From positions 1-52,504 of the forward strand of contig JAKOPZ010000293.1 in the NCBI GenBank assembly GCA_029778615.1: 52,504 nt of DNA, written 5' to 3'. The stretch is from Chloroflexota bacterium (GTDB taxonomy: Bacteria; Chloroflexota; Anaerolineae; UBA4142; SHND01). This document shows, in pieces, positions 13,821-51,944 of this stretch; the first letter of the stretch is position 1, and each line of letters opens with the position of its first letter. The notes beneath the pieces are model-generated. The model did not search any database. It was not told where the DNA came from and saw only the letters and a program-made list of their open reading frames with translations. Both the position numbers and the translations under genes were made by a program.

Positions 13821-13849
13821 AAGATTGGAGACTGGAGATTGGAGATTAG
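13821..13849. repeat. Tandem GGAGATT-type heptamers
   Basis: agattggagactggagattg and gagattag fill the 33-bp gap between the BMC-P stop and the GH1 start. Same family as 12465-12499. Confidence 0.7.
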
Positions 13850-14118
13850 TGCGTGAGGGAAATCGAATCAATGACGCCGACAATGGAAGAACGCACGGGC
13901 GCGTTCGGCACGCCAATCACTTGACGCGTCGAATTGCCTTCTTGACACACGAGCACCGTGTCGCCAATTCCCGCTTGCGCCGCATCAACAGCAATGAAAT
14001 CATCTTCGGGTTTTTCGTTCGCGAGATGCAACGGACGCACAAGCAAAAGTTTGCGTCCCGCGAATGCAGGATGCTTGATGGTGGAAACGACAGTGCCGAC
14101 GACTTTGGCGAGAATCAT
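13846..14118 (-). CDS. BMC-P shell vertex protein (EutN/CcmL family), copy 3
   Basis: The 90-residue protein starts MILAKVVGTVVSTIKHPAF, the standard start of the pentameric EutN/CcmL fold, with conserved AVDAAQAGIGDTVLV in the middle and a C-terminal SSIVGVIDSI strand. Pentamers cap the twelve vertices of the microcompartment. Its start overlaps the DUF5615 stop by 4 bp (ATGA), so translation should be coupled to a toxin-like gene. It is one of three divergent BMC-P genes here. Confidence 0.92.
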   Translation of the reverse strand: MILAKVVGTVVSTIKHPAFAGRKLLLVRPLHLANEKPEDDFIAVDAAQAGIGDTVLVCQEGNSTRQVIGVPNAPVRSSIVGVIDSISLTH

Positions 14119-14447
14119 AGATACTCTATTCGATTTCGCATTTCTTCCGACTCCACAAGTTCGTAGAGCATAATCAACAGACCTATCAACTCCCCAATGC
14201 CGTATTTATCCGGGTAACAATAAGCGATGCCCGCATGTTCGACATTTCCTGATGTAATCCGCAAATAATCTTGGTCAAAGGTCACCATCACCCGTTCCTC
14301 TTGAAATGCCCGAGCCAGCTGTGCTTCATCGGGGAGACCATCGTGTCCAATATCTTGCGGGCGCACGGCATCAATTTTACGTCGCTGCAATCCGCGCAAA
14401 ATCGGGAGTGGAATATGCTCATCCAGAAAAAAACGGATTTCAGCCAC
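14115..14447 (-). CDS. DUF5615 PIN-like protein (toxin-like partner)
   Basis: The 110-residue protein has the DUF5615 signature: RFFLDEHIPLPILRGL at the start, HDGLPDEAQLARAFQEER, and VMVTFDQDYLR with the second acidic cluster. The acidic residues resemble the metal site of PIN-type ribonucleases. It overlaps the DUF433 gene by 8 bp and the downstream BMC-P start by 4 bp. The pair DUF433-DUF5615 is commonly proposed as a toxin-antitoxin system. Activity is inferred from family only. Confidence 0.82.
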   Translation of the reverse strand: MAEIRFFLDEHIPLPILRGLQRRKIDAVRPQDIGHDGLPDEAQLARAFQEERVMVTFDQDYLRITSGNVEHAGIAYCYPDKYGIGELIGLLIMLYELVESEEMRNRIEYL

Positions 14448-14748
14448 GCAGTTTTTCTTTCAAAATTGATGGATACTTGGCTTTCATTTCAGAGACAATC
14501 TCAGCTTCGCGTTTGAAATCCCGCTCAATCTCCTCTCGATTATCATAATAATATGTCATTGCCGCATGAACATCCGCCAAGGTGATATTAGAAAACATAT
14601 CCACAACTTCATCGGCGGTCTTGCCATGTTTCTCGTACCAAATCACAATATCCATCACACGAATCCGCGTCCCCGCAATTCGCGCTTTGCCGCCGACAAC
14701 GCCGGGCGTTTTTTCTATATGCTGCGTCAACACATTTTCAACTGCCAT
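14440..14748 (-). CDS. DUF433 protein (antitoxin-like partner)
   Basis: The 102-residue protein carries the DUF433 core: GVVGGKARIAGTRIRVMDIV, then TADEVVDMFSNITLADVHAA, a short winged-helix or HTH-like fold. The C-terminal half (about 65-102) is a charged helix that likely contacts the DUF5615 partner. It would act as DNA-binding autoregulator and antitoxin. It starts 9 bp after the upstream BMC-P stop and overlaps DUF5615 by 8 bp. Confidence 0.82.
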   Translation of the reverse strand: MAVENVLTQHIEKTPGVVGGKARIAGTRIRVMDIVIWYEKHGKTADEVVDMFSNITLADVHAAMTYYYDNREEIERDFKREAEIVSEMKAKYPSILKEKLRG

Positions 14749-14756
14749 CTTTCACC

Positions 14757-15068
14757 TCACGCAAAATAACTTTCGCCTTCCGGCAATTCCAACTCTACAT
14801 TCTCAATCGCGTCCGCTGTTTCGACAATTCCCACAATCGCCAAATCAACAGGACCCACAACAGGATACGTTGCTAACGCGGCTTCACGCGCGCGGACGAG
14901 AAAAACGAAATCATTTTGTCCCGCATCCACCACATCAATCGCCGCTTGCGGGCGCCCTATTTTTTCGCGCTTGCGATTCATTAGTTGCACGAGCAACAAT
15001 TTTTCGCCCGCGAGCTGTTCGTCTTTGACGGTGGCGACGACGGTGCCGACGACTTGACCTAAAATCAT
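14757..15068 (-). CDS. BMC-P shell vertex protein (EutN/CcmL family), copy 2
   Basis: The 103-residue protein starts MILGQVVGTVVATVKDEQL and keeps AIDVVDAGQNDFVFLV and a C-terminal DLAIVGIVETAD strand. It is longer than the other copies, with an acidic C-terminal tail (ENVELELPEGESYFA). Its predicted role is a pentameric vertex cap. It is separated from the third copy only by the DUF433/DUF5615 pair. Confidence 0.92.
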   Translation of the reverse strand: MILGQVVGTVVATVKDEQLAGEKLLLVQLMNRKREKIGRPQAAIDVVDAGQNDFVFLVRAREAALATYPVVGPVDLAIVGIVETADAIENVELELPEGESYFA

Positions 15069-15130
15069 AGAGACTGGAGATTAGAGATTAGAGATTGGAA
15101 GCAATCTCCAGTCTCTAGTCTCTGATCTCT
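15069..15130. repeat. Inverted spacer repeat (GAGATTA words)
   Basis: agagactggagattagagat (from 15069) is inverted in the arm ending 15130 (caatctccagtctctagtct onward), forming a long imperfect hairpin between the BMC-P and the possible adaptor gene. Confidence 0.8.
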
Positions 15131-15497
15131 ACAATTTTTCCACCACGCGTTTTACAATTTGCTCCACCACCGCGCTGTCTACACCCGCGCCGAGTCGCGC
15201 AATGACGCCGCTTTTCACTTGCTCAATGACCTGTTGCTTTTCCGCATCGGTCAAGGACGCGTTGTTTGACGCGGGCGCGTTGGGCGCAGATTGCGCGTGA
15301 AGATTCGCTACATCGGGCGATTTCAAAACGCTCGAGGACGCGGACGCGCTGTTTGTCACCTTGCGCTTGATGCCAAGTTTGTCCATCATCTCGCGCGCAA
15401 CGTCGGTGATGTAAACGGAATCGTCCACTTGGATTTCGGTGACGCCGCGTTTTGCCAAATCTTCGATATCACGTTCGGTGTAAAAAGTGCGTGACAT
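15129..15497 (-). CDS. Small BMC-associated protein with targeting-peptide-like C-terminus
   Basis: The 122-residue protein is not recognised as a named family. Residues 4-46 (FYTERDIEDLAKRGVTEIQ onward, with a later YITDVAREMMDKLGI) match the N-terminal module of the EutQ in this locus (LFTAADIRIWKECGETKID), also seen in EutT-like proteins. Residues 47-78 are a Ser/Ala/Pro/Asn-rich linker. Residues 80-122 are two amphipathic helices, the last being SAVVEQIVKRVVEKL, very like the targeting helices on EutC and the aldehyde dehydrogenase here. With no catalytic domain between them, an adaptor or scaffold linking cargo and shell is a reasonable guess. It lies between BMC-T and BMC-P genes. Confidence 0.75.
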   Translation of the reverse strand: MSRTFYTERDIEDLAKRGVTEIQVDDSVYITDVAREMMDKLGIKRKVTNSASASSSVLKSPDVANLHAQSAPNAPASNNASLTDAEKQQVIEQVKSGVIARLGAGVDSAVVEQIVKRVVEKL

Positions 15498-15500
15498 AAA

Positions 15501-15583
15501 AGTAAAGAGGGAAACAGGGAGACAGGTATCAAGTAATCAGGTTACTTGTTTCCCTGTCTACCTATCTACTTACTACCTTCTAC
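15501..15583. repeat. Inverted spacer repeat (GGGAAACAGG words)
   Basis: The left arm contains agagggaaacagggagacag and tatcaagtaatcag. The right arm contains gttacttgtttccctgtcta, then cctatctacttactacc. The same word family recurs at 50151-50196. Confidence 0.75.
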
Positions 15584-16203
15584 TTGCCCTGCAAATTTTC
15601 AATCGCTGCGACGGCGGCTTTTTGTGCTGCCATCATTTCCGCTTCACTGCCCGACATCCACATCCGTCCAAAACGCCCGACGGAGGAAACGTGAATCAAT
15701 TTCACACTCGCATATTTTTCTGCTTCGTTCGCGGCGAGATTGATGTACGCGGCGGGCGCAACTTCCATGATGAATAGTGTTTCGCCCGCGACCAACATCG
15801 CGCCGCGTCGAAAACGGTTGAGCAATTGTACTTGGTACGTGTTGACGTGAGTGATGATTTGGAGCGACGCGACAGTGGGCTTGATGCGGTCTTCGGGTTT
15901 GAGATTCAAACGCTCCAAAACAATGCGTCCCGCTTCCAACACTTCGGCTTGTTTGAGCGAATGGACTTCGAACATGCCAAATTCGCGTTCGACAATTTGC
16001 GCGCCCGGTTTCGCGTCGGTGGATTTCACCGCAATGTCCACGAGCCGAAACACATCATTGCCGGGCGCGACTTCGACGTACAGCGACGCCATGCCTTCAA
16101 TCGGCAAATCGCCTTGCGTAATCGTGCCGACGAACGCCGCGTACTGCGGCTGCATGCGGTCCAAATAACAATACGCGCGGAGTTCAAATTTGGTGTCTGC
16201 CAT
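15580..16203 (-). CDS. BMC-T shell protein with two degenerate BMC domains
   Basis: The 207-residue protein has two BMC-like halves: about 35-100 (ASLYVEVAPGNDVFRLVDIA, ending AEVLEAGRIVLERL) and about 138-205 (ETLFIMEVAPAAYINLAANE, then VGRFGRMWMSGSEAEMMAAQ). Each matches the strand-helix-strand layout of the BMC fold, so a trimer of pseudo-hexamer shape is expected, probably with a gated pore. Residues 1-34 (ELRAYCYLDRMQPQYAAFVG) are an extension absent from EutL. It is clearly different from EutL at 28914-29570. The ATG at 16203 is used, as the ORF upstream is spacer repeat. Confidence 0.8.
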   Translation of the reverse strand: MADTKFELRAYCYLDRMQPQYAAFVGTITQGDLPIEGMASLYVEVAPGNDVFRLVDIAVKSTDAKPGAQIVEREFGMFEVHSLKQAEVLEAGRIVLERLNLKPEDRIKPTVASLQIITHVNTYQVQLLNRFRRGAMLVAGETLFIMEVAPAAYINLAANEAEKYASVKLIHVSSVGRFGRMWMSGSEAEMMAAQKAAVAAIENLQGK

Positions 16204-16209
16204 GTTTGA

Positions 16210-16292
16210 GAATACAGAACACAGATGACAGAATACAGGCAGGAGCATCTGTGTTCCGTTATCTGTGTTCTGTTATCTGTGCTCTGTCATCT
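16210..16292. repeat. Inverted spacer repeat (ACAGAACACAGATGAC words)
   Basis: acagaacacagatgacagaa and acaggcagg on the left are inverted in atctgtgttccgttatctgt, then gttctgttatctgtgctctgtcat. It reaches the stop codon of eutJ. Confidence 0.8.
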
Positions 16293-17105
16293 GATTTTAT
16301 CGTTCATCGCAATTCCGAGTGGTGTAATAAATAGCGGTTTCGGCGGCACAATCGTTTTGACGCCTGTCACGCGTTCAATCACCTGTCCCATATTCGGAAA
16401 CATGCTCGTTCCGCCGACGAGATAAATTTCATGCACATCATAACGCGCAATGTGTTTTGAAACAATCGCTCCAACTTTTTCCATTACAGGTTGAACCAGC
16501 GGAAACAAACGCGCCTGTTCGCCCGCGTCCGTTTTCAATTTTTCCGCGTCCTCGAATGGAATGTTTAGCGCGCCGGCGATGACGAGCGAAAAATGTGTGC
16601 CGCCTGTTGCTTCGTCGGCAGTGTAAATCACTTGTCCGTCGCGCAAAACTGCAACGCCCGTTGTCCCGCCGCCAACGTCAACGACTGCCCCATCGCGAAT
16701 TTGCAAAACCGCATTTGCCGCGCTTGGCTCATCAATTTCGTTCGTACATTCCAACCCCGCGCCGCGCAACACATTCGCGGTCGCGCGCACTTCAGCGCGC
16801 GGCACGCCCGGAGGAAACCCTGTCGCGGCGTGAGTAAGTTCAAAACCGAGACGCGCTTCAACTTTGCGTTTCAATTCTTTCAGCAAATCAATCGCGCCGA
16901 TGAAATCCACCACGAGTCCATCGCGCACCACTTCTGCGAAACGATACGTGCCGACGAGCGGCTGAAAATTTTCGTCGAGTACGAGAACGACGGTATACGC
17001 GGTCCCCAAATCCACGCCGACGTGAACGCGCCCGCGATATTCAACACGCGGCGTTTGCATCGCGCGTTCCGTCGCGTCAAGCAATTGCTCTAAATCCGAA
17101 TTCAT
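16287..17105 (-). CDS. eutJ: EutJ-type Hsp70-like chaperone
   Basis: This 272-residue actin/Hsp70-fold ATPase of the EutJ/PduJ-neighbour family has a phosphate-1 loop HVGVDLGTAYTVVLVLDE near residue 28, phosphate-2 VVDVGGGTTGVAVL near 140 and an adenosine motif IYLVGGTSMFPNMG near 230. EutJ is thought to help fold or assemble ethanolamine-utilisation proteins, and its exact client is unproven. The length matches E. coli EutJ (about 278). Its start overlaps the upstream methyltransferase stop by 4 bp. Confidence 0.9.
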   Translation of the reverse strand: MNSDLEQLLDATERAMQTPRVEYRGRVHVGVDLGTAYTVVLVLDENFQPLVGTYRFAEVVRDGLVVDFIGAIDLLKELKRKVEARLGFELTHAATGFPPGVPRAEVRATANVLRGAGLECTNEIDEPSAANAVLQIRDGAVVDVGGGTTGVAVLRDGQVIYTADEATGGTHFSLVIAGALNIPFEDAEKLKTDAGEQARLFPLVQPVMEKVGAIVSKHIARYDVHEIYLVGGTSMFPNMGQVIERVTGVKTIVPPKPLFITPLGIAMNDKIR

Positions 17106-18374: not shown

Positions 18375-18446
18375 GACAAATTTGAAATTTGTCTTGCATA
18401 GTTGTTCTTATTCGTGCGAATTGGACTATTGCGATGTCCAATTCGC
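18375..18446. repeat. Two short hairpins between eutQ and mscL
   Basis: gacaaattt/aaatttgtc (18375-18393) forms one hairpin and gcgaattggac/gtccaattcgc (18416-18446) another with an 11-bp perfect stem. The second overlaps the eutQ stop codon. The first word recurs upstream of the membrane protein gene at about 37175 and 37215. Confidence 0.75.
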
Positions 18447-19013
18447 GGGATACGTAACATACATAAAGTGCGCGAACGTGCGCGTACAAAACAAAATGCT
18501 CGTGCCGTGCGGGATAAAAATCACATCGCCCGCGTGTCCGATGAAACTTTCATCGCCGACACGAATTTCCAATTCACCGTCAATCACATACTCGACTTCA
18601 TCGTAATTTAACGTCCACGGAAACGAACCATTTTCAAAACGCATAAACCCCACGCCCATCGGCGAACCATCGCGGTCGGTAATCACATCCGTCGCGCGAA
18701 TGTTCATGTCGGGACGTTTCACATCGAATGGAAACGGTCCGAGCTCGACGCGCTTGGGGTTAATCAATTGCACGCGCGTCCCGCGTACATCCGGCGCGCG
18801 TTTGTCCACCATCCGATTTTGCATCTCGCGCACGACGTTGCGGACTTGGTCGGCGAGCGGGTCAACCGACGCGCGCACCAGCGCAATTTTCAGCGCGCGC
18901 GCCACGTCTTCCGCCTCCGGCGTCACAATGTCGTCAGGCGCCAAATCAATTTTCGTTTCGCCGCATTCTTTCCAGATGCGAATGTCGGCGGCGGTAAAGA
19001 GACGTTTGGGCAT
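18426..19013 (-). CDS. eutQ: EutQ cupin protein (acetate kinase-like)
   Basis: The 195-residue protein has an N-terminal module (about 4-46, LFTAADIRIWKECGETKID) shared with the small protein at 15129-15497, a linker, and a C-terminal EutQ cupin (about 105-190, DEVEYVIDGELEIRVGDESF and AGDVIFIPHGTSILF). EutQ is required in some ethanolamine pathways and has been reported to have acetate kinase activity, giving ATP from acetyl phosphate. Acetyl phosphate supply would need a phosphotransacylase, which is not seen in the window. Confidence 0.92.
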   Translation of the reverse strand: MPKRLFTAADIRIWKECGETKIDLAPDDIVTPEAEDVARALKIALVRASVDPLADQVRNVVREMQNRMVDKRAPDVRGTRVQLINPKRVELGPFPFDVKRPDMNIRATDVITDRDGSPMGVGFMRFENGSFPWTLNYDEVEYVIDGELEIRVGDESFIGHAGDVIFIPHGTSILFCTRTFAHFMYVTYPANWTSQ

Positions 19014-24167: not shown

Positions 24168-24216
24168 GACGTTTTATGTTTGACGCCTGAACGTGATGCA
24201 TCAAACGTAAAACGTC
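24168..24216. repeat. Hairpin between metallopeptidase-like and methyltransferase genes
   Basis: gacgttttatgtttgacgc (24168-24186) pairs at 17 of 19 positions with gcatcaaacgtaaaacgtc (24198-24216). Confidence 0.8.
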
Positions 24217-25771
24217 ACGAGTGCGCGCACGCGATAAACGCGCGGCGCAGGATTTTGTTTCCTTGCGCGTCGTAGGCAATATAGTAGGGCTGCTGACGCG
24301 TAATGAGATGCGCAATCTCGGCTTCGTCGCCCGGACACGCGTCATAGATGCGTTTGTGCTCAGCGAGTTTTTCGACATGGTCGCGAATCGCGCGCACATC
24401 GTCCACGCCCGCGCGATAGTAACCCGAAAAGGCGACCATCCCGCCGGGATTCACGTTCAGCGTCAAGCCGCCTTGCAGTGGCACCATTGCGCCGTTTGCG
24501 GGACCGTACTGTTTGCCTTTGAGCGGAATCATCCGCTGCGCGCGATATTGCACGACTTTGTCATCTTGAATGTGTCCGAGCTCGCGCGCAAAAATCAATT
24601 CTTCGCCGCGCAAGCGCAGCGCATTTTGTAATTCCTGCGGCGGCATCGGTTCAGCAGTTGTGCCTGCCATACTGAGCAAACCGAGATTCACGGGTGACGT
24701 TTTCAATCCAATTGTTTTGGTATGCGGTTTGAACAGATTCGCATCTTTGACCTGCAAGATGCGGCGGTTGGAAAAAATCCGCTTCAAGATTTCAAAATAC
24801 GTCCCCTGAAACAATTGCTGCTCGGCTTTGAACATGGACGTGGCGATAACGCGAAACACCGCGTCGCCGGGCGGGGCGAGCATCAGCGCGGTTGCCATCA
24901 TTTTTCCCACATCATCGCGCGCCTGACACAGCGCCTCATCTGCGCTCAACTTGGCATCCTGCTTGCGTTTCCATTCATAGATGCCGACCAAGATTTGGTA
25001 CACCGCGCCGCTGAGTACGCGCGAGAAACTATGCGATTCCGAAGCGAGGCGCGTGGTGGGCGCGGTCGCGGGCAGCATCCACGTCTCCCGGTAACGAAAC
25101 GTGTTGACCAAATCGCGCAAAGAAGTTGCGCCCGCGACATCTTTGCCAAAGGCGGCGTACAGCGCTTTGCCCAATTGTTCTGCCAGTCGCGTCACATTGC
25201 TGCTCGCGCGCAAATTGCCGCCTGTCTCGCGCAGCAATCGTTCGCGCACGGTCGGAAATTGCAGCGTGGTGAGCAGCGCGGTAATGTCGCCGAACGCTTC
25301 GTGGAACGCGCCGGTTTCGGGATGGAGCGAAGACCAGTAGTCGGGATGGTGCGCGTCGAGAATCGCGTGTCCGCATTCATGCGCGACGACATCGGACGAC
25401 TCGCAAGTGTAAATAGTGCGGTTGCTGAGCGTATCGGTAGTGTAGAAAAATTTTAGCGCGGTGCGGTCATAATACGCGTTGAGGTCGCGCCCCGCGCGCG
25501 GCTGAACGGGGAGTACGGTTCCGGTCTGCCAATCGAATGGCGCGCCGAAATAGTTTTGCCAAATGTCGTACGCGTGGGAAAGGATAACCATCAAGTGCGA
25601 TGCTTGAAATTCAACACTGCCCGGTTTTGCCGCGTCCAAATTGCCGTCCACAGGCAAACCGGGGATGGCAAATTTGTCTGGACAGCAGCCCGGTGACGCT
25701 GCTTCGGGCACATCGCCTTTGCCGCCGGGGTCATTGAGGAATGCGCTAAAGAGGCGCGGGGGTGGCATCAT
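24215..25771 (-). CDS. Thermolysin-like zinc metallopeptidase with C-terminal repeat domain
   Basis: The 518-residue protein has a zinc motif VVAHECGHAIL (HECGH) near residue 125 and a downstream Glu in ETGAFHEAFGDI near 150, the M4/thermolysin arrangement (HExxH plus NEA-like E). No signal peptide is seen. The C-terminal 80 residues (RAIRDHVEKLAEHKRIYDAC onward to YYIAYDAQGNKILRRAFI) closely resemble the C-terminus of the neighbouring 154-residue protein. The start at 25771 follows an AAGGAATTGCC site. The substrate is unknown and the peptidase role is inferred from the motifs. Confidence 0.75.
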   Translation of the reverse strand: MMPPPRLFSAFLNDPGGKGDVPEAASPGCCPDKFAIPGLPVDGNLDAAKPGSVEFQASHLMVILSHAYDIWQNYFGAPFDWQTGTVLPVQPRAGRDLNAYYDRTALKFFYTTDTLSNRTIYTCESSDVVAHECGHAILDAHHPDYWSSLHPETGAFHEAFGDITALLTTLQFPTVRERLLRETGGNLRASSNVTRLAEQLGKALYAAFGKDVAGATSLRDLVNTFRYRETWMLPATAPTTRLASESHSFSRVLSGAVYQILVGIYEWKRKQDAKLSADEALCQARDDVGKMMATALMLAPPGDAVFRVIATSMFKAEQQLFQGTYFEILKRIFSNRRILQVKDANLFKPHTKTIGLKTSPVNLGLLSMAGTTAEPMPPQELQNALRLRGEELIFARELGHIQDDKVVQYRAQRMIPLKGKQYGPANGAMVPLQGGLTLNVNPGGMVAFSGYYRAGVDDVRAIRDHVEKLAEHKRIYDACPGDEAEIAHLITRQQPYYIAYDAQGNKILRRAFIACAHS

Positions 25772-25800
25772 GGCAATTCCTTCGCGAAGGTGTGGAAAGA

Positions 25801-25858
25801 GCAAAGCACCTGTTGTTGTATCGGGTCAAAGCTCCAAACACGCGCGCAGGTGCTTTGC
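25801..25858. repeat. 12-bp inverted ends around 34-bp loop
   Basis: gcaaagcacctg (25801-25812) and caggtgctttgc (25847-25858) pair perfectly. The hairpin lies between two genes that share a C-terminal domain. Confidence 0.8.
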
Positions 25859-25869
25859 CCCAATAGACC

Positions 25870-26334
25870 TCAAGAAATCCACGCGCGCTTGAGATGTTTG
25901 TAGCCGTGCGCGTCTTGTTCCACGTACCACGCTTTGCCCTGGCGGCGCAATTGTTCGGTGTCAATTTGCTCGCCCGGTTTGGGCACATAGACCTCGCCGT
26001 TAGCCACCAATTTGGAAACATGGTCGGCGATGGCGCGCAGCTGTCGCGGGTCGGCGGGTTCAACGTGGGCTTGGACCAACTCGCCGCGCGCATTGAATTT
26101 CAATTCGCCTTGCGCGCGGAGGTCTACGCAGATGCCTGCCACATCGCAGAGCGTGTTGTCGTCCAACACCACGCGCTGGGTGTATGAAAAATCAATACGC
26201 GTGCCGCGCGCGGTGCGCGTGACATTTTCCACGTGCAGCTGGGCATCGGGCGTGAGGTCCAGAATCGGGCGCGCTTGCTCCAAGATTTGCAGCGCGTCCG
26301 CGCTTTCAAAATCGCGGGGTAGTGCGAGTGCCAT
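25870..26334 (-). CDS. Unknown protein sharing a domain with the adjacent metallopeptidase
   Basis: The 154-residue protein is not recognised. Residues about 75-154 (RQLRAIADHVSKLVANGEVY, then AWYVEQDAHGYKHLKRAWI) align with the C-terminal 80 residues of the downstream metallopeptidase-like protein (RAIRDHVEKLAEHKRIYDAC, YYIAYDAQGNKILRRAFI). The N-terminal part (DLTPDAQLHVENVTRTARGT) looks like an extended beta-rich domain. The pair may be substrate recognition or an inhibitor with its protease; that is speculation from shared sequence and adjacency only. Confidence 0.7.
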   Translation of the reverse strand: MALALPRDFESADALQILEQARPILDLTPDAQLHVENVTRTARGTRIDFSYTQRVVLDDNTLCDVAGICVDLRAQGELKFNARGELVQAHVEPADPRQLRAIADHVSKLVANGEVYVPKPGEQIDTEQLRRQGKAWYVEQDAHGYKHLKRAWIS

Positions 26335-26455: not shown

Positions 26456-26770
26456 CTAACCGCTGCGCCCGCCGACGGCACCTTTGGTGTTTTGCGGGAG
26501 AATCATCTCGACGCTTTCGTGCGGACGTGGAATGACATGAACACTCACCAGTTCGCCGACGCGTTTCGCCGCCGCTGCGCCCGCGTCCGTCGCCGCTTTC
26601 ACCGCGCCGACATCGCCGCGCACCATGACGGTGACGAATCCGCCGCCAATGTATTCACTTCCGATGAGTACGACATTCGCGGCTTTCACCATTGCGTCCG
26701 CCGCTTCAATCGAACCGACCAGCCCTTTGGTTTCCACCATGCCGAGGGCAATCATGTTAGGGTCTGCCAT
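26456..26770 (-). CDS. eutM: BMC-H shell protein, EutM-like
   Basis: The 104-residue protein is close to EutM/Pdu[21 protein letters not shown], the pore loop EYIGGG near residue 37, [20 protein letters not shown] and [20 protein letters not shown]. Hexamers tile the shell facets and the GGG pore admits small polar substrates. The start at 26770 has a GAGAGGAAC ribosome site 6 bp upstream. An in-frame upstream extension of 54 residues to 26932 ([20 protein letters not shown]) is open but is not expected of this family. The C-terminal tail ([11 protein letters not shown]) is short. Confidence 0.94.
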
Positions 26771-26945
26771 GTTGTTCCTCTCCTCCGAAACGCTCGCTCC
26801 TGCGAGCGCGAAATTTTGAGGCGACAAGTCTGGCGGTACAGAATCGTCGCGCACATCCACTTGTGTTTTTGATTTTCTTTGCGTCGCGCGCACCGCACGC
26901 GCGAGTTTGTCTTGCAATGATTTGCGAGGCATTTCGGTTCGCTTC

Positions 26946-27368: not shown

Positions 27369-28835
27369 CTATCTGCTCCGCAACTCTGCAAGCACACGCT
27401 GCACGACTTCTTCAATCTGCGCGTCGCTCGCGTCAGAACGTTGCGGCGAACGTTCCGCACCGGCGGATGATTCAGGATTCCAATCGCGCACGCCCCATGC
27501 GACGCGCTTGACGTTCAACACATGCTTGACAGAAATGTTTTCGCTGAATACGCCGCCGCCGATGCCGCCCGTCGCGAGTGTCATGGACGGGTCGAGGTTC
27601 GTGGTGAAACCCACCGCGCCGAGCGTCGCCATGGTGTTGACGACGATGCGAAACGCGGGTTTCTCCAAACCGAATTGCATGATGACATTTTCATCGCGGC
27701 AGTGAATCGAAAGTGTGTGTCCGTCGCCGCCAAATTTCAAAAGTTCGATACAGCGTTCGCAACCTTTTTCCCAACCGTCCGCGACGTACCAACCGAGAAC
27801 GCTCGTCAATTTTTCGCGCGAGAGTGGATATTCGGGTCCAACACCTTTTAATTTTCCAATCAATACGCGCGCGTTCGAGGGAACGCTGATGCCCGCCATT
27901 TGCGCGAGCGCTTGCGGCGATTTGCCGACGGCTTTCGGGTTTGGCAAACCATTCGCTTGATGAATGATTTTGCTCATCGCCGCGCTTTGCGCGTCGTCCA
28001 TAAAATACGCGCCGCGTTTTTCCATCTCTGCTTGCAACTGCGCGGCGATAGGTGAATCCGCGACGACGGACTGTTCGCTCGCGCAAATCGTTGACCAATC
28101 GAACGATTTCGATTTCACAATCAAATCGGCGGCTTGCGGAATGTCCGCGCTGCGGTCAACATACACGGGAACATTGCCCGGACCCACGCCAATCGCGGGT
28201 TTGCCCGAACTGTGCGCCGCGCGAACCACTGCCTCGCCGCCCGTCGCAATCAACATGCTCACCGCCCAATGCTTCATCAATTCATTGAGCGCGGGCATCG
28301 TCACCGTCGTCAAACTCGAAATCAATCCTTTAGGCATTCCCGCGCGTTCGCCCGCTTCCGCCATGACGCGCACAGTCTCACTCGTACATTTGACCGCGCT
28401 TGGATGCGGCGAAATTATCATCGCGTTGCGCGCTTTGACGGCGATGAGGACTTTGAACATCGCGGTTGACGTTGGATTCGTCGAAGGCGTAAATCCCGCG
28501 AGCACGCCGACGGGCCATCCGATTTCGACAATCTTTTTCGCGTCATCGCGTCGAATCACGCCAACGGTTTTTACATCCTTGAGCGAGTCCCATAAAAATT
28601 TGCTGCTAAATTCATTCTTGACGCGTTTGTGCGCGGGGACGCCGTACGTCGTTTCGTCCGTCGCCATTTGTCCGAGACGCGCGGATTCGCGATAGGCCGC
28701 GTCCGCCATCGCCGCGCAAACCTTGTCCACTTGCTCTTGCGAGAAATGGAAAAATTCGCGCTGTGCTTGACGCGCGGCAACGGCAAGATTGCGGACTTCT
28801 TGGATGGAACGGAGGTCAGTGTCGAGTTCGGGCAT
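27369..28835 (-). CDS. eutE: CoA-acylating aldehyde dehydrogenase with C-terminal targeting peptide (EutE/PduP type)
   Basis: The 488-residue enzyme converts acetaldehyde (or another short aldehyde) to acyl-CoA with NAD+ inside the shell. The catalytic Cys is in FDWSTICASEQ near residue 247; VLAGFTPSTNPTSTAMFK near 112 and the late NVKRVAWGVRDW match EutE/PduP and clostridial BMC dehydrogenases. After an Arg/Ser/Pro-rich linker, the last residues DAQIEEVVQRVLAELRSR form an amphipathic helix typical of encapsulation peptides. E. coli EutE instead has its peptide at the N-terminus, so the placement here follows other BMC dehydrogenases. The main dehydrogenase of the locus. Confidence 0.95.
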   Translation of the reverse strand: MPELDTDLRSIQEVRNLAVAARQAQREFFHFSQEQVDKVCAAMADAAYRESARLGQMATDETTYGVPAHKRVKNEFSSKFLWDSLKDVKTVGVIRRDDAKKIVEIGWPVGVLAGFTPSTNPTSTAMFKVLIAVKARNAMIISPHPSAVKCTSETVRVMAEAGERAGMPKGLISSLTTVTMPALNELMKHWAVSMLIATGGEAVVRAAHSSGKPAIGVGPGNVPVYVDRSADIPQAADLIVKSKSFDWSTICASEQSVVADSPIAAQLQAEMEKRGAYFMDDAQSAAMSKIIHQANGLPNPKAVGKSPQALAQMAGISVPSNARVLIGKLKGVGPEYPLSREKLTSVLGWYVADGWEKGCERCIELLKFGGDGHTLSIHCRDENVIMQFGLEKPAFRIVVNTMATLGAVGFTTNLDPSMTLATGGIGGGVFSENISVKHVLNVKRVAWGVRDWNPESSAGAERSPQRSDASDAQIEEVVQRVLAELRSR

Positions 28836-28841
28836 TGTGTT

Positions 28842-28914
28842 GGTAGTAGGTAGTAGGTAGTAGGTAGTAGGTAGTAGGAACAGCCCTGCTACTTGCTACG
28901 TGCTACGTGATACT
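28842..28914. repeat. Inverted spacer repeat (GGTAGTA heptamers)
   Basis: Five tandem ggtagta words (28842-28878) are inverted in ctgctacttgctacgtgcta onward (28887-28914). The same words recur at 34445-34506 and 51108-51182. Confidence 0.85.
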
Positions 28915-29570
28915 TAGAACTTTAATGGATTGCGCGCAACATCGAGAACGGCATCTTGAAACGCGGCGCAGGCGGCGCGGCACGCGGCTTGTGAACCCGT
29001 GAGCAGCGCGCCGGAAAAGTTGGTTTCGCTCGGCGGATTGAACCAAACGCGCAGTGTAACGTTGGCGGCTTTCAGTGCCGCATCAATGCCAAAGGTCGCT
29101 TCGAGCGGCGGGGCGATAAGATATGCCATCGGCGTTCCCAGCGGCACGCCGGCGGTTTCACTCAAGTATGTGCCGGTGCGCGAAATCAGATGCGGGAAAA
29201 AAGCGATGGTGTTGTTATCATTCGCGGAATAAAAGTACGCCTCGTCGCGGATGTACGTGAGCGCGGCGTTCAAACCCGCGCGCACTTCGGCAGGGTCGGG
29301 TCCTGCAAGAATCGCAATGATTTCGCCCGACAGCGGACCCGACGCGTGCGCGGAACCGGCGTAAAAACTTTTTGCATACGCGACGCGCACATCCGCCTGT
29401 TTGGTCGCTTCGTCAATCGCCGTGTATGTCGCGTCGTCAATATCGGCGGTGAGAAATCCAATACTGCGTTCGTTTTCGCGCAGCTGCATTTTTTCGGCGA
29501 ACATGCGGTCCACATTCGGAATAATCCGAACGGCGAGGACGTTGGCTTTGATGGGGTCGAGAACGCTCAT
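28914..29570 (-). CDS. eutL: EutL trimeric shell protein
   Basis: The 218-residue tandem-BMC protein is EutL: starts MSVLDPIKANVLAVRIIPNV, then RSIGFLTADIDDATYTAIDE, TGTYLSETAGVPLGTPMAYL, APPLEATFGIDAALKAANVT, and the C-terminus FQDAVLDVARNPLKF. EutL trimers form pseudo-hexamers with a gated pore that binds ethanolamine. Length matches E. coli EutL (219). The start at 29570 overlaps the sulfotransferase stop by 4 bp; the longer ORF reads back into that gene in another frame. Confidence 0.97.
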   Translation of the reverse strand: MSVLDPIKANVLAVRIIPNVDRMFAEKMQLRENERSIGFLTADIDDATYTAIDEATKQADVRVAYAKSFYAGSAHASGPLSGEIIAILAGPDPAEVRAGLNAALTYIRDEAYFYSANDNNTIAFFPHLISRTGTYLSETAGVPLGTPMAYLIAPPLEATFGIDAALKAANVTLRVWFNPPSETNFSGALLTGSQAACRAACAAFQDAVLDVARNPLKF

Positions 29571-30472
29571 ACGAATTCTCCAATGAAAGGCACGTCTTTG
29601 ACGCGTCGTTTGGCGCGCGAGATGCGGTCGAACCATGGACCGTACAGTTGATTGCGTTGGCGATATGCCGCGACCTGCGGCGCGAAATCGGGACCTTGCA
29701 ACTGAATTTGTTCGGCAAATAATTTTTGGGCAAACGCGTACAGCTCGGCATCCAGTTGATTCTGCTCGCGCAGCCATGCCATGACCTCTGCCGGGACGCG
29801 TTCCCCGCGCGGACGCGTGCGCGTGATGTTACTTTTCACATAGTACGGCGCGCGCCAGCCGAACGCTTTGGTGAGCATGACGAGCGATTCATCAAAACGT
29901 TCGACCAAGCCGACGATGAAATAGCGCGCGAGATGCTCTTGCGCGCGTTCCAACATTTCGCGCGTGACGCCGCCAAATTTGGCAAAGAGGTCGCCGGAAA
30001 GAAAACGCGTTTGCATATTGTCGAACATGTCGCGCATGGTGCCGTTGCGTAAATCGTCAATGGACGGCATGTGCGGCGCAACGTCTTGTTTCAAAATCGA
30101 GGTGCGATAATCCATTTCAAAATAAAAGTAACTCGACAACGCGAGGTCAATCGGTTCGCGCAGCATGGTGAAATATGTGCTGGGTTGTGACAACGTTTCA
30201 TGCAAGCCGAACGGCATGTGTCCCCAAAACAATTTGTACTGGGCTTTGGCAGCCGGTGGCAGCGCGCGCAGGGTCCAATAGTCTTTGACCTCAACATACG
30301 GGTACGCTTCGCCGTAGCGATACTGCCGCAGCAAAATATTTTCAAGCGTCGTTCCCGCTGTTTTGGGGATATGAAAAAAAATACACGCGCGCGCGCCCGG
30401 TTTCAAGAGTTCGTGCCGCGCGGCGGGAACCGGCTTGGAAAAATCCGTGCGTGTTGCTTGTTCTCGCGTCAT
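29567..30472 (-). CDS. Sulfotransferase-family P-loop protein
   Basis: The 301-residue protein has a 5'-phosphosulfate loop ACIFFHIPKTAGTTLENILL near residue 25 and a 3'-phosphate loop MLREPIDLALSSYFYFE near 105, the PAPS-binding pattern of the sulfotransferase family. It could transfer sulfate to a carbohydrate or peptide; the acceptor is unknown. The ATG at 30472 gives a start just before KPGARACIFFHIP, and the longer ORF overlaps the upstream gene. It sits between the DUF697 gene and eutL with ATGA coupling to eutL, so it is in the BMC operon although no BMC role is known. Confidence 0.82.
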   Translation of the reverse strand: MTREQATRTDFSKPVPAARHELLKPGARACIFFHIPKTAGTTLENILLRQYRYGEAYPYVEVKDYWTLRALPPAAKAQYKLFWGHMPFGLHETLSQPSTYFTMLREPIDLALSSYFYFEMDYRTSILKQDVAPHMPSIDDLRNGTMRDMFDNMQTRFLSGDLFAKFGGVTREMLERAQEHLARYFIVGLVERFDESLVMLTKAFGWRAPYYVKSNITRTRPRGERVPAEVMAWLREQNQLDAELYAFAQKLFAEQIQLQGPDFAPQVAAYRQRNQLYGPWFDRISRAKRRVKDVPFIGEFV

Positions 30473-31650: not shown

Positions 31651-32541
31651 CTACTTGTTCTGTTCTTGCTCCATCAATTTCAATTTAATACCGCTCGCCT
31701 GATGTTTCAGCATGCGTTTGATATATTCTACCACGTACGCGCCCGCTTCAAGCGGATTTGTGCCACCGTTAAAAATATTGCACACCACGTCGCGGTCGGC
31801 GTCCGTCGAATCGGGCTGCGGCTTGTAACCCATATATGCGCTCATCGCTTCCGCGCGTCCAAGTCCAGGGCGTTCGCCAATTAGAGTGACAACGACTTTT
31901 GCATCCACGACGGAATTGACATCGTTCAACAATCCAACGCGTCCATATTTTACATAGAACGGCGTGCCCATTTTTAGACCCGCTTGCGCGAGCCCCTGTT
32001 GAATCACAGGAAAAATGTCGCGCAAATTATGTTCAATCGCGGCGGCGGAAAGTCCATCCGAAACGTACACTTGGACATCGGGCTGTTTGATACATTTTTC
32101 CTGCAATGTTTTGCGCGCGGCGTCGGAAAGTTTTCTGCCCAAGTCGGGACGCAAAAGATATTCTTGACGATTGCTCGCTTGTGTCTGCACCTCGAACAGA
32201 TTGAACTGTTGTAACAGCGTGGGGTCAATTTCTTTGAACAGCGCGTCTTGCGTGACCGCGTGGTCTGCCCAAAAAATAAATTGCGGAATGTTGCGATAGC
32301 GCGGACCCGCGTGTCCGATGCCAATGCGCGCGGGCGTCGTCTGCATCAACGCGCGCAGCACATCGGGCTTGCGAACGTTTTCGACGTACGAACGCGTACG
32401 ATATTCCGACGCGGTGATGTCGGGGAGGTCGAGATTGATGGTAGGGGTGTTCAATTGAACGCCCCTACCATCAATACCTTGCCGTTTCAATTCCGCGACG
32501 ACGGCATCAATGATGGATTCGATTTGTTGTTGTGTAATCAT
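31651..32541 (-). CDS. eutC: Ethanolamine ammonia-lyase small subunit EutC
   Basis: With EutB this forms the adenosylcobalamin-dependent lyase that converts ethanolamine to acetaldehyde and ammonia. The 296-residue protein has an N-terminal encapsulation helix (MITQQQIESIIDAVVAELKR, residues 1-20), a short linker, then the catalytic domain (TTPARIGIGHAGPRYRN, YLLRPDLGRKLSDAA, VQVYVSDGLSAAAIEHN, VVVTLIGERPGLGRAEAMSA). The linker residues IDGRGVQLNTPTIN are encoded by a 42-bp near-perfect palindrome at 32434-32475. It is coupled upstream by ATGA overlap to a DinB gene. Confidence 0.97.
   Translation of the reverse strand: MITQQQIESIIDAVVAELKRQGIDGRGVQLNTPTINLDLPDITASEYRTRSYVENVRKPDVLRALMQTTPARIGIGHAGPRYRNIPQFIFWADHAVTQDALFKEIDPTLLQQFNLFEVQTQASNRQEYLLRPDLGRKLSDAARKTLQEKCIKQPDVQVYVSDGLSAAAIEHNLRDIFPVIQQGLAQAGLKMGTPFYVKYGRVGLLNDVNSVVDAKVVVTLIGERPGLGRAEAMSAYMGYKPQPDSTDADRDVVCNIFNGGTNPLEAGAYVVEYIKRMLKHQASGIKLKLMEQEQNK
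32434..32475. repeat. 42-bp palindrome inside eutC linker
   Basis: attgatggtaggggtgttca on the left matches, with one G-T wobble, tgaacgcccctaccatcaat on the right; the centre is caattg. It is exactly 14 codons long and in frame, and it encodes the linker between the EutC targeting helix and the catalytic domain. Confidence 0.9.
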
Positions 32542-33073: not shown

Positions 33074-34444
33074 TCAGCGCACAAAAATCGTCGGGTCGCC
33101 CGCTTTATCCGTCAACAACAATTTTTCTTTATCCCACAAGCCCATCTCGACGAGCCAATTTTCAAATTCGGGCAGTGGGCGCAATTTCAAAATTTGACGC
33201 AGTGACGGCGCGTCGTGGAATGAATTGGATTGGTACGAAAGCATGGGGTCGTCGCCCATCGGTACGCCCATAAAATAATTGCAGCCCGCGGCGGCGAGAA
33301 GGATGGAAAGATTTTCCAGTGAGTTCTGGTCAGCGCGCGCATGATTCGTGTAACACGCGTCGCAGCCCATTGAGATGCCCGTGAGTTTCGCGCAAAAGTG
33401 GTCTTCCAAGCCCGCGCGCGTAATTTGCCGCGCATCGTACAAGTATTCGGGTCCGATGAAACCCACAACCGAATTGAGTTGATATGGCGCGTAGCGTTTC
33501 GCCAGACCGTAGCACCGTACTTCTAACGTCAATTGGTCCCACCCGTGATGCGCGTCGGCGGAAAGTTCCGCGCCTTCACCCGTTTCAAAATACATGTAAT
33601 TCGGTCCGGGGACGACGGAATATTTTTTCGCCACCTCGTACGCTTCATCCAACATGCCAACGGAAATTCCAAACGACTCGTTGCCTTTTTGCGAACCCGC
33701 GAGCGATTGAAACACAAGTCCTGCCGGTGAACCGCGCTTCATCGCCTCCATCTGCGTCGTCACGTGCGCGAGAACACAATTCTGTGTCGGAATTTTCCAA
33801 TCGGTGATGACCTTGTAGCTCATGTCCAGCAAGCGCTGTACGCTCGCGAGGGAATCGTCAACAGGATTGATGCCGATAACGGAATCGCCCGAACCATACG
33901 AGAGTCCTTCGTAAATTTCCGCGCGGATGCCGTCGGGGTCGTCGGTGGGATGATTCGGCTGATTGCGCGAAGCGAGCCGTCCCATTTCGCCCATCGTGTT
34001 GTTTGCATGAGTGACGACGCGAATTTTGGACGCGGCAAGAACGAGGTCCATGTTCGACATCAATTTTGCGACGGCGGAAATCATTTCGCTCGTGAGCCCG
34101 TTTTGAATTTTCTTGATATCGTCGTTCGTCGTCTTGTTGTCGAGCAGCCACTCGCGCAATTCTCCAACTGTCCATGATTTGATTTGCGCGTACGCGTCTT
34201 GGTCAACGGCATCCAGGATGACGCGCGTCACTTCATCTTGGTCGTACGGGGCGACGGGATTTTCGTACAAAACGGACAGCGGCACTTGACTCAACACATA
34301 TTTCGCCGCCGCGCGTTCAATCGCCGACGACGCGGCAACGCCCGCGAGGTGGTCGCCCGATTTGTCCTCGTTCGCCTTGCCCATGAGGTCGCGAATATCG
34401 CGGAACTCGTACAATTTGCCGAAAAGTTTGCAGCGTAGAATCAT
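33074..34444 (-). CDS. eutB: Ethanolamine ammonia-lyase large subunit EutB
   Basis: The 456-residue TIM-barrel subunit carries the active site and, with EutC, binds adenosylcobalamin. Diagnostic stretches include LAGVAASSAIERAAAKYVL, GLSYGSGDSVIGINPVDDSL, IPTQNCVLAHVTTQMEAMKR, YMYFETGEGAELSADAHHGW, FIGPEYLYDARQITRAGLED, GISMGCDACYTNHARADQNS and the C-terminal KAGDPTIFVR. Length matches E. coli EutB (453). The start at 34444 (MILRCKLFGKLYEF) aligns with family starts; a longer ORF reads into the spacer repeat upstream. Confidence 0.98.
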   Translation of the reverse strand: MILRCKLFGKLYEFRDIRDLMGKANEDKSGDHLAGVAASSAIERAAAKYVLSQVPLSVLYENPVAPYDQDEVTRVILDAVDQDAYAQIKSWTVGELREWLLDNKTTNDDIKKIQNGLTSEMISAVAKLMSNMDLVLAASKIRVVTHANNTMGEMGRLASRNQPNHPTDDPDGIRAEIYEGLSYGSGDSVIGINPVDDSLASVQRLLDMSYKVITDWKIPTQNCVLAHVTTQMEAMKRGSPAGLVFQSLAGSQKGNESFGISVGMLDEAYEVAKKYSVVPGPNYMYFETGEGAELSADAHHGWDQLTLEVRCYGLAKRYAPYQLNSVVGFIGPEYLYDARQITRAGLEDHFCAKLTGISMGCDACYTNHARADQNSLENLSILLAAAGCNYFMGVPMGDDPMLSYQSNSFHDAPSLRQILKLRPLPEFENWLVEMGLWDKEKLLLTDKAGDPTIFVR

Positions 34445-34506
34445 CGGTAGTAGGTGGCAGGTAGTAGGTAACAAGGAAAATCCCTGCTACCTACTACTTG
34501 CTACTC
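34445..34506. repeat. Inverted spacer repeat (GGTAGTA words)
   Basis: ggtagtaggtggcaggtagt on the left is inverted in tgctacctactacttgctac on the right. It lies directly before eutB in transcription order and its right end overlaps the cupin stop. Confidence 0.8.
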
Positions 34507-37174: not shown

Positions 37175-37228
37175 TGGCAAGACAAATTTGAAATATGTCC
37201 CACGCGCTGACACATTACAAATTTGTCT
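37175..37228. repeat. Spacer hairpin (GACAAATTTGAAATATGTCC words)
   Basis: gacaaatttgaaatatgtcc is inverted in the right-hand ttacaaatttgtctta. Similar to the first hairpin at 18375-18393. It lies between eutA and the four-helix protein. Confidence 0.6.
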
Positions 37229-38661
37229 TAGCGATAAAATACGAGCGTTTTCACACTCAACGGCACCACGCGGCCATCGAGCATCGGCAAACCAATGTCA
37301 ATGTAATCACCTTCATCCAAGCCAACTTGGTCAATCGAAAGCAGCGCGCGCGGCGGCGATAATGCCTTCACCGCTTGCCCCAAACTCTGCGCATAGTCGC
37401 GTCCCAAAATCAAAATCAACGGGCGCTCACCCGGCAATTCGTGCGTCGCATAATCCGACAACCCCTTTGCCAAATTTTGCAACTGTGCGAAATCCAACGT
37501 GCCGTGAATGTCCAACGCAATCGCCGCGTTTTCACCGCGCGCGTCAATTTCCATGCGTGCCATCGCATCCCGAATCGCGTTGGGAATGTTCGATGTACTG
37601 CCGAGATACGGACGCACAACGGGAACATTCTTGAGCGGCAGAATTTGTTTCTCTGCCCAAATTGTCGAACCGCTCAACGTCACCGTTTGCGAGCTTGCGC
37701 CAATCACCGTCGCGCGAATCGTTTCGGGCGGCTCAATCGCTTCCATTTCCTGAAGCGCTTTGTTTTCACGCAGCGCGAGTCCGAACAATGGACCGATGTC
37801 ATCATGCGTTGTAACATTTTCCAAGGTCACATTTTGAATCGGATGATAAAAATAATGTCCAACGCCGCCGCTGAGAAATAATTTTGTGTTGCGCCCGCTC
37901 ACACTCATCGGCGGCGTGAGCATCACTTGATGCGCGAGCGCGGACTCGCGTCCTTCAAGCAATTCCACCGTCAAGTCCGCGAGGATGTTGCAAAATTCGC
38001 GCAAGGGTCCGAGTTCCGCGCGCGCGCCAACACGAATCGGCAAATTGTGATGCTGGATAATTTTTCGCGCCGGTTCGGCAATGTGACGAATCTGTAATGT
38101 GTTGTGGTCAATCTCGACGATGCGTCCGCCCACGTTCATCGCCGCCGCCGCGAGCGTGTTGCCCAATTCAAACACCGCGCTGTTTGCGGTGCCGCCGCCA
38201 ATGTCCACATTTGTCACGCGCGCATAATGTTCGCGCGACCAACTCGCCGCGCCGCTGCCGCGTCCCGCCATTTGCGCTTCAAGGCGCGGACCCGCGACGG
38301 TCACCACAAATTCGCCCGCATATTTTCCGAGCGCTTGCAAAATTTCCGCCGCGTTTTCTTTTTTTGCAATTTCGCCCGTGACGATGACCGCGCCCGTCTC
38401 TACTTGCGACGGGGCAATGTTCGCTTTGGCGTATTCTGTTTCGACGATATGTTCCAGTGCCGTTACGTCCACACGTTCGCGCGTGGCGAGCGGCGTAAGA
38501 TAAATTTGGGATTGATAAAGCACATCGCGGTCATTGATACCGATGCGCGGCACTTGACTGGACGGCGCGATATTTTTCAAATAAATCCGCGAAAAAACAA
38601 TTTGCGTCGTCGTCGTCCCAACGTCTAGTCCCACACTCAACAGTGTGCGCGCGTCAGCCAT
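37228..38661 (-). CDS. eutA: EutA, reactivating factor of ethanolamine ammonia-lyase
   Basis: EutA is an actin/Hsp70-fold ATPase that releases damaged cobalamin from EutBC so it can bind fresh adenosylcobalamin. The 477-residue protein has SVGLDVGTTTTQIVFSRIYL near residue 9, TNVDIGGGTANSAVFELGNT near 148, and the C-terminal RPLILILGRDYAQSLGQAVK near 415. Length is close to E. coli EutA (467). It is the second gene after the operon promoter at 39100-39128. Confidence 0.96.
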   Translation of the reverse strand: MADARTLLSVGLDVGTTTTQIVFSRIYLKNIAPSSQVPRIGINDRDVLYQSQIYLTPLATRERVDVTALEHIVETEYAKANIAPSQVETGAVIVTGEIAKKENAAEILQALGKYAGEFVVTVAGPRLEAQMAGRGSGAASWSREHYARVTNVDIGGGTANSAVFELGNTLAAAAMNVGGRIVEIDHNTLQIRHIAEPARKIIQHHNLPIRVGARAELGPLREFCNILADLTVELLEGRESALAHQVMLTPPMSVSGRNTKLFLSGGVGHYFYHPIQNVTLENVTTHDDIGPLFGLALRENKALQEMEAIEPPETIRATVIGASSQTVTLSGSTIWAEKQILPLKNVPVVRPYLGSTSNIPNAIRDAMARMEIDARGENAAIALDIHGTLDFAQLQNLAKGLSDYATHELPGERPLILILGRDYAQSLGQAVKALSPPRALLSIDQVGLDEGDYIDIGLPMLDGRVVPLSVKTLVFYR

Positions 38662-47103: not shown

Positions 47104-48216
47104 TCAAGGGGCAAACGCCCACGTCAACGCTTCGGGCAAAACATTGCGCCACGCGGGCCAATTGTGATAGGCGTAATACTCGCGATATTTCACGTCGAAC
47201 TTGTTTCGCCGCAATGCTTTGTGCATTCGCCGATTCGGCTCGAGGAGCCAGTCCATTTGCCCCACGTCGAGCCAAACGCGCGGCGGCGTTTTCGTTTGCG
47301 TGAGCCAGGTAAACGTCGAGGTCGGAAAATCCCAAAATTCAAATGCGCCCGCGTGGCTGATGACGTGACCGAAGACTTTGGGCGCGCGCAATCCCGTAAA
47401 GAGCGCCATCAAGCCGCCCATGCTCGCGCCCATGATGCCGTACGCGCCTTTTTTCTTTTTCCAATCCATCAGTTTCAAATGCTGTTGCGCGAACGGCACT
47501 ACTTGTCTCAAGAGAAAAATCAGAGTCAACTCGTTGCACGCGTACTCGCTCATGCGCGCGCTGCCTTTTTCCAAACGACTGCTTTCGAGCATCGCGACGG
47601 CGAGCGGCGGAATTTTGTTCTGCGCGAAAAGATTATCCAGAATCGTTGGCAGTTTTGCGCGCTGCAAATAGTCCTGACCATCGAGCGCGACGATGAGCGC
47701 GGCAGGTTCTTGCGTTGGCGGCTGATACAAATGCACGCGGCGTTGATTGCCGATGACAATACCCCCCGCTTGCAGCAAATGCGTCGTCACGCGCCCGCGC
47801 GGAATGCCGCGCACGGGCTTGAGAAACGGTGTCGGTAGCGCGTCTGGCGCGTAGAAAAAATTGTTGATGCCGCCGACGCCGTTTGGCGTTTTGCGCCCGT
47901 TGAACGGGTCATTGACGCGTTTCCCATCTTTCAAAAAAACATATTCCACATACGCGTTGCGCGGAAACTTTAAAGTCGTCGCCCAAGCATTCGGTTCGAT
48001 TTGTTCCAACGCGAGCGGCGCGCGTGGTGAACTACCGCCATCCTCCGCCCAAAAAACAAAATCGCCGGTGAGCGCGGGCGGCTGTTTGCCTTGCCACACA
48101 AACGTCGCATGACACTCCGCGCCATCGGAATCGAATGGCACGCCATCGCGCGTGATGCGTCCGTCAATCAACGGCGTCCCTTCCGCGCGGACACGTTCGA
48201 GAAGAAAAGATTTCAT
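47104..48216 (-). CDS. Enterochelin-esterase-like alpha/beta hydrolase
   Basis: The 370-residue protein has an N-terminal beta-sandwich (about 20-130), like the IroE/Fes starch-binding-like or CBM48 modules (VEYVFLKDGKRVNDPFNGRK), then an alpha/beta hydrolase domain with the nucleophile in YGIMGASMGGLMALF near residue 268 and VWLDVGQMDWLLEP near 315. It would cleave an ester; substrate unknown. Its start overlaps the activator gene stop by 4 bp. Confidence 0.85.
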   Translation of the reverse strand: MKSFLLERVRAEGTPLIDGRITRDGVPFDSDGAECHATFVWQGKQPPALTGDFVFWAEDGGSSPRAPLALEQIEPNAWATTLKFPRNAYVEYVFLKDGKRVNDPFNGRKTPNGVGGINNFFYAPDALPTPFLKPVRGIPRGRVTTHLLQAGGIVIGNQRRVHLYQPPTQEPAALIVALDGQDYLQRAKLPTILDNLFAQNKIPPLAVAMLESSRLEKGSARMSEYACNELTLIFLLRQVVPFAQQHLKLMDWKKKKGAYGIMGASMGGLMALFTGLRAPKVFGHVISHAGAFEFWDFPTSTFTWLTQTKTPPRVWLDVGQMDWLLEPNRRMHKALRRNKFDVKYREYYAYHNWPAWRNVLPEALTWAFAP

Positions 48217-50126: not shown

Positions 50127-50150
50127 AATGCCACAGTATATTCAGATACA

Positions 50151-50196
50151 AGAAAACAGGGAAACAAGATTCCTGTTTCCCTGCCTACCTGTTTCC
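50151..50196. repeat. Spacer hairpin (ACAGGGAAACAAG words)
   Basis: agaaaacagggaaacaagat is inverted in cctgtttccctgcctacctg. Same words as 15501-15583. Confidence 0.7.
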
Positions 50197-50237
50197 GCCA
50201 CCACTCTGTTTGTTTACAACTGATTTCTGATTACCGC

Positions 50238-51101: not shown

Positions 51102-51107
51102 GATTCG

Positions 51108-51182
51108 GGTAGCAGGTAGCAGGTAGCAGGTAGCAGGTAGTAGAGTTGCCCTTACTACTTGCTACGTACTACTTGATACCTA
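51108..51182. repeat. Inverted spacer repeat (GGTAGCA heptamers)
   Basis: gggtagcaggtagcaggtag (four to five tandem words) is inverted in ttactacttgctacgtacta. Same word family as 28842 and 34445. Confidence 0.85.
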
Positions 51183-51929: not shown

Positions 51930-51944
51930 AGGAAAGGTGATTGT

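Follow-up and report, generated by a model that had tools for sequence, protein, structure and literature searches.

For most metabolosomes, the way in which enzymes are loaded is not known to have been explained, and for Eut cargo an explanation came as late as 2025, with the N-terminal domain of EutQ (PMC12487888). The window, a stretch of 52,504 nucleotides from a Chloroflexota bacterium, makes up the complete contig C74 in a genome of 6.0 Mb and 372 contigs and encodes a protein of 122 amino acids, hereafter called the adaptor (Table 1). With a probability of roughly 0.7, we regard this adaptor as a free-standing EutQ N-terminal domain, which would form a bridge between the shell, contacted by its N-terminal module (N-module), and the cargo, contacted by a C-terminal pair of helices (H3/H4).

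Table 1. Coordinates of the adaptor, its parts and the surrounding microcompartment (BMC) genes in the window
Feature	Position	Strand	Remarks
Adaptor gene (122 aa)	15129..15497	minus	stand-alone EutQ-N-terminal-domain-like protein
N-module, residues 1-47	15357..15497	minus	strand-helix-strand-strand-helix-strand (predicted); proposed shell-facing part, corresponding to H1/H2 of EutQ
Disordered linker, residues 48-83	15249..15356	minus	Ser/Ala/Asn-rich; contains genus motif SSVLxSPDVAxLH
Helix H3, residues 84-102	15192..15248	minus	AF2 model
Helix H4, residues 108-121	15135..15176	minus	similar to encapsulation peptides (EPs); AF2 model and alignment
Second EutN-type BMC-P vertex protein	13846..14118	minus	
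EutN-type BMC-P vertex protein	14757..15068	minus	just downstream of adaptor
BMC-Tdp (CcmP-like) shell protein	15580..16248	minus	NF053796 261 bits, under cut-off of 340
EutJ-like chaperone	16287..17105	minus	TIGR02529 above cut-off
EutQ of the locus	18426..19013	minus	N-module and cupin, without H3/H4 pair
BMC-H shell protein	26456..26932	minus	
EutE-like aldehyde dehydrogenase	27369..28835	minus	with C-terminal encapsulation peptide
EutL BMC-T shell protein	28914..29777	minus	above cut-off
EutC	31651..32541	minus	with N-terminal encapsulation-peptide-like helix
EutB	33074..34474	minus	named from sequence
EutA	37228..38661	minus	NF007992 433 bits, under cut-off of 598

All PF00936 matches of the genome are confined to the window. 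Read along the strand of the adaptor, the locus encodes EutA, EutB, EutC, EutL, the aldehyde dehydrogenase, BMC-H and EutQ, then EutJ, BMC-Tdp and the adaptor, and finally the two EutN proteins with a DUF433/DUF5615 pair between them; other genes are interspersed. The BMC-Tdp gene is the conserved neighbour immediately upstream of the adaptor gene, and the EutB protein of the window is also found beside EutA, EutC and EutL in eight other adaptor loci. EUT genes together with BMC-Tdp characterize the EUT3 type of Sutter et al., which is related to the SPU6 type of Anaerolineae (PMC8217296), and we infer that the locus in the window belongs to EUT3. The DUF433 and DUF5615 (PIN-like) genes between the two EutN genes (14115-14748, minus strand) are reminiscent of a toxin-antitoxin pair. 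Beside the BMC-H gene (24215-26334, minus strand), a large and a small protein are encoded, which have a common C-terminal stretch (VRAIRDHVEKLAEHKRIY... / LRAIADHVSKLVANGEVY...), and the large protein has a weak match to M4 peptidases. A methyl-transfer system composed of a RACo-type corrinoid activator, a pterin-binding methyltransferase and a B12-binding protein (48213-51989, minus strand) is located on the same contig as the B12-dependent eut genes.

The adaptor reading frame starts with an ATG at 15497, stops at 15129 on the minus strand and is no chance frame, as the protein is conserved in 80 or more genomes. In the AF2 model, the N-module has pLDDT values between 78 and 92 by block of ten residues, and the linker, which had been described as flexible in the preliminary description, indeed has a pLDDT of about 43 over residues 51 to 80. 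It is followed by the helix pair H3/H4, which is present in the model, with a modest confidence (pLDDT about 60 to 73), and in the alignment to EutQ. Neither Pfam nor NCBIfam contains a model that matches the window adaptor at its cut-off, and no enzymatic domain was found at the Pfam cut-off in any of 53 family members, which agrees with the earlier assessment of the protein as non-enzymatic. A cargo enzyme carrying an encapsulation peptide was dismissed on the same Pfam and NCBIfam results. A PDB search with the single window sequence found no family, a PDB search with the family profile returned nothing, and Foldseek gave no match to the adaptor model at E values up to 0.001. Matches to aRib, Mnd1 and NAD synthase were dropped; they lay far below the cut-offs and were not common to the family.

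A relative could be found among the Eut proteins themselves. When the family HMM was run without filters against a set of 16 Eut proteins from E. coli K-12, EutQ alone was reported (E 0.0013 at Z=10000), with an alignment over its residues 2-98 that takes in N-module, linker and H3/H4, and hhalign paired positions 3-120 of the family with the stretch 2-99 of the E. coli EutQ (pair E 4.1e-6). In the comparison with nine EutQs of adaptor loci, exactly residues 1-50 were aligned (pair E 7.8e-10). Separate profiles of the two modules, an approach proposed in the preliminary description, point in the same direction: the N-module profile scored above all shuffles with residues 1-50 of both the window EutQ (2756 shuffles) and E. 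coli EutQ (2812 shuffles), and the score of the C-module with residues 46-105 of E. coli EutQ was equalled by 2 of 2238 shuffles. The same N-module is also seen in the AlphaFold model of the window EutQ. The NCBIfam EutQ model gives weak matches in 33 of the 53 members (best 4.7e-6); for the window adaptor, NF012001 (EutQ) reaches 17.3 bits at a cut-off of 193 bits. The EutQ cupin (PF06249) is absent in all 53 members, and the window adaptor ends after H4. Judged by these alignments, the adaptor is a homologue of EutQ 1-99 over its full length. The likeness to EutQ had previously been noted for the first 43 residues, which is true but too narrow, and the protein, which had been taken for a novel BMC adaptor, has the proposed layout but is not without precedent, being an EutQ domain on its own. 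Taken alone, the homology of the C-terminal part is modest, and it draws on a combination of position, order and conserved residues; that amphipathic helices resemble one another by convergence speaks against the C-terminal match.

In Salmonella, it was shown that EutQ 1-99 both targets and bridges, with H1/H2 as the shell (EutL/EutM) part and H3/H4 binding to EutC 1-20 and EutE 1-20 with a Kd of about 7 uM (PMC12487888, Yang et al.). All helices and the flexible part are required, assembly does not depend on the cupin, and the exchanges L89A or V93A abolish peptide binding (PMC12487888). Salmonella positions were transferred to E. coli EutQ with an offset of +4, at which all five named residues agree; at other offsets between -3 and +8, at most one of them does. 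Via the hhalign alignment, L89 and V93 correspond to I114 and V118 of the window adaptor, and among 80 adaptors, position 118 is always V and position 114 always I or V. Only the two hydrophobic ones of the five contact residues are clearly kept in the family: the equivalent of R67 is mostly R or K (Q93 in the window adaptor), and E64 is not kept.

Helix H4 itself resembles encapsulation peptides, as would be expected if it packs on them, and EPs have been found to co-assemble with one another (PMC12339742). The C-terminal 25 residues of the window aldehyde dehydrogenase received 13.7 bits from the H4 profile, more than any of 2610 shuffles; the N-terminus of the window EutC received 5.5 bits, which was bettered by 17 of 2684 shuffles. 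Three of 2370 shuffles were as good as E. coli EutC, and the N-terminus of an RpiB from a sugar-phosphate (SPU)-type organelle scored above all shuffles. Other peptides, such as those of SPU DeoC and SPU aldehyde dehydrogenase, did not stand out, and the termini of nine other locus proteins, used as controls, scored lower (best 2.4 bits). The likeness of the C-terminal helices to the peptides of EutC and aldehyde dehydrogenase, as suggested earlier, is partly borne out by the shuffle tests for H4 and is weaker for H3.

Within the limits that incomplete metagenome bins set to presence/absence counts, the family was matched in 38 of the 298 genomes sampled from the class Anaerolineae, and a set of 400 genomes of the phylum gave no match outside this class. 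The scan of a larger contig collection yielded 80 adaptor loci, practically all from Chloroflexota. Two adaptors from Lokiarchaeota and Edwardsbacteria bins (L076, L102) nest within Anaerolineae in the tree, and these look like mis-binned contigs. Complete members have 94 to 139 amino acids, with a conserved N-module, conserved C-terminal helices and a linker that varies in length and sequence. The searched literature, including the BMC catalogue PMC8217296 without its supplementary tables, contained no mention of the family, an unnamed group of small, conserved, non-enzymatic Anaerolineae proteins of about 95 to 140 amino acids. PF00936 is found in 36 of the 38 adaptor genomes versus 69 of 260 others of the class (Fisher p 1.9e-16); the other two genomes carry the adaptor on short contigs, with a BMC-Tdp gene adjoining it upstream. 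Wherever genomes and loci could be checked, the adaptor occurs only with shell genes, as had been anticipated, and its recurrence beside BMC-T genes was likewise confirmed: a BMC-Tdp gene is present in 80 of 80 loci, on the same strand and upstream, at a distance of less than 190 bp in 76 of 79 measured cases. In a few genomes of the class, a true EutQ is present but an adaptor was not detected; either the adaptor is not obligatory or it was missed in incomplete genomes. One sub-family (L031:1498-1833, L033:1498-1836 and L034, minus strand, 1321-1686), encoded in clusters of the order BMC-H, BMC-Tdp, adaptor, EutN and BMC-H, lacks H3/H4 and has a possibly metal-binding KP(K/R)GCQH motif instead.

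The EutQs of adaptor loci consist of the N-module and the cupin, lack H4 and mostly also lack H3. Some EutQs of the class (L137, L139, L141, L143) have an intermediate layout, in which one H3-like helix (DDLEARVRSAVMKVLG) separates the N-module from the cupin. For the window EutQ, an H3 of its own (DPLADQVRNVVREMQNRM) was considered and rejected, with a C-module score no better than that of shuffles (306 of 2883). EutQ is encoded in eight of the nine adaptor loci with EUT genes. It is absent from all 40 loci in which RpiB or DeoC, enzymes of the SPU type, were called (by Pfam for L101 and by tblastn for the rest). Three genomes (G089, G233, G280) possess both an EutQ-bearing EUT-type locus and an SPU locus, each of which has one adaptor. 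In a tree of the 80 adaptors, which is based on few columns and unsure in its details, 39 of 40 SPU copies fall into one supported half and all EUT copies into the other. The linker motif PPxAPxRPY is present in 36 of 40 SPU adaptors and in none of nine EUT adaptors, and the motif SSVLxSPDVAxLH is conserved in the genus of the window; such lineage-specific conservation suggests that the linker is more than a spacer. PPxAPxRPY sits directly after the N-module (L101:10001-10348 and 35 other SPU loci), and it is possible that it is a short motif for binding the shell or BMC-Tdp. The best reading of these distributions is that the adaptor serves both EUT- and SPU-type organelles. A more far-reaching idea, which we consider doubtful though worth stating, is that genomes with two kinds of microcompartments keep one free-standing adaptor paralogue per kind, which sorts cargo to the right shell; the N-module and linker motif would match the shell, and H3/H4 would match the peptides. 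The adaptor would then be a general, exchangeable cargo-loading part that is older than or independent of EutQ, and enterobacterial EutQ would be its fusion with a cupin.

According to the proposed mechanism, the folded N-module would lie on the inner face of the shell, which in Salmonella is the EutL/EutM interface and here perhaps BMC-Tdp or BMC-H. The disordered linker of about 36 residues would provide reach, and the H3/H4 pair would pack hydrophobically on the amphipathic EPs of the cargo, namely the EutC N-terminus and the aldehyde dehydrogenase C-terminus, so that the adaptor keeps the enzyme core joined to the shell while the organelle assembles. The enzyme part, the cupin, would stay on EutQ, which retains the N-module alone, presumably as its own shell tag. 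Shell binding, cargo binding, polarity and a need for assembly are what we infer here, the polarity (N-terminus to shell, C-terminus to cargo) from the homology with Salmonella EutQ. The bridge between cargo and shell that the preliminary description had envisaged is supported by this homology; its assignment of shell affinity to the C-terminal helices is probably reversed, and these most likely face the cargo.

In another reading, H3/H4 are ordinary EPs that carry a small N-module protein into the lumen, where the N-module has another job such as the binding of a cofactor or of EutJ. H4 scores like a cargo EP (with the EutE C-terminus above 2610 shuffles), and EPs are known from many cargo proteins (PMC8217296). 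Such a passenger role appears unlikely, however, given that the counterpart of the N-module in EutQ is H1/H2, which binds the shell (PMC12487888), that two helices in a fixed layout are kept rather than a single EP, and that the same layout bridges in EutQ itself. The constant BMC-Tdp gene upstream, more closely linked to the adaptor than any enzyme gene, could also mean that the adaptor attaches to the stacked double trimer of BMC-Tdp, whose gating or placement it would adjust, instead of serving in general cargo loading. This is improbable, as no BMC-Tdp gene was detected adjoining the second adaptor copies in the SPU loci of three genomes and as the homologue EutQ works in Salmonella, whose EUT1 organelle lacks BMC-Tdp (PMC8217296).

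Small, partly disordered and BMC-linked, the adaptor also recalls positioning or partition factors of the McdB kind, in which a disordered body would touch the shell with an amphipathic end. The sequence homology to EutQ instead makes this very improbable; a ParA/McdA-like gene with a deviant Walker A motif was sought with a regular expression only and was found in 0 of 80 loci. That the adaptor is a decayed EutQ, which has lost its cupin and is no longer needed, would account for the same N-terminal architecture with a missing enzyme part, but we give hardly any credence to decay: dozens of genomes conserve the adaptor with invariant positions in both modules, a separate EutQ persists in EUT loci, and there is one adaptor per organelle type. 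The free-standing EutQ domain acting as a bridge is the reading we prefer, and under it the family would show that the loading part of EutQ exists alone and enzyme-free, in EUT-type organelles as well as in sugar-phosphate organelles without EutQ, for which the adaptor is the predicted loading factor. It would also explain how the EutQs of such loci manage without H3/H4. In EutQ of Gram-positive bacteria, the first three helices are missing, and assembly must differ there (Yang et al., PMC12487888); a split-out adaptor would be a concrete precedent for such a difference. Furthermore, the adaptor might serve as a small natural tether for engineering.

Among known systems, residues 1-99 of Salmonella and E. 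coli EutQ (PMC12487888) are closest, with a profile match over the full length, a common N-module, flexible linker and H3/H4 pair, and hydrophobic EP-gripping positions that are kept in the adaptor. The cupin with its acetate-kinase part (100-229) is found in EutQ only, whereas the adaptor is an independent gene without it; EutQ dimerises via the cupin, so that no dimer contact is known for the adaptor. The adaptor also occurs in organelles that have neither EutQ nor ethanolamine enzymes. TIGR02536 (eut_hyp), which weakly matches 23 of 53 adaptor members, carries a copy of the N-module as well, but at the C-terminus of a 207-aa protein. The N-terminus of EutT is distantly related to the N-module (pair E 9e-5 and a probability of 59% in hhalign) and is followed by a cobalamin adenosyltransferase, in which EutT differs from the adaptor. 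A stand-alone protein of 91 amino acids with an EutT-like N-terminus (ITEQELREQW...) and no adenosyltransferase domain is encoded in a BMC locus that belongs to a related family (L051:5745-6020, plus strand). CcmN, CsoS2 and PduB 1-37, which link cargo to the shell of carboxysomes and Pdu organelles (PMC12487888), are work-alikes at the level of the proposed function.
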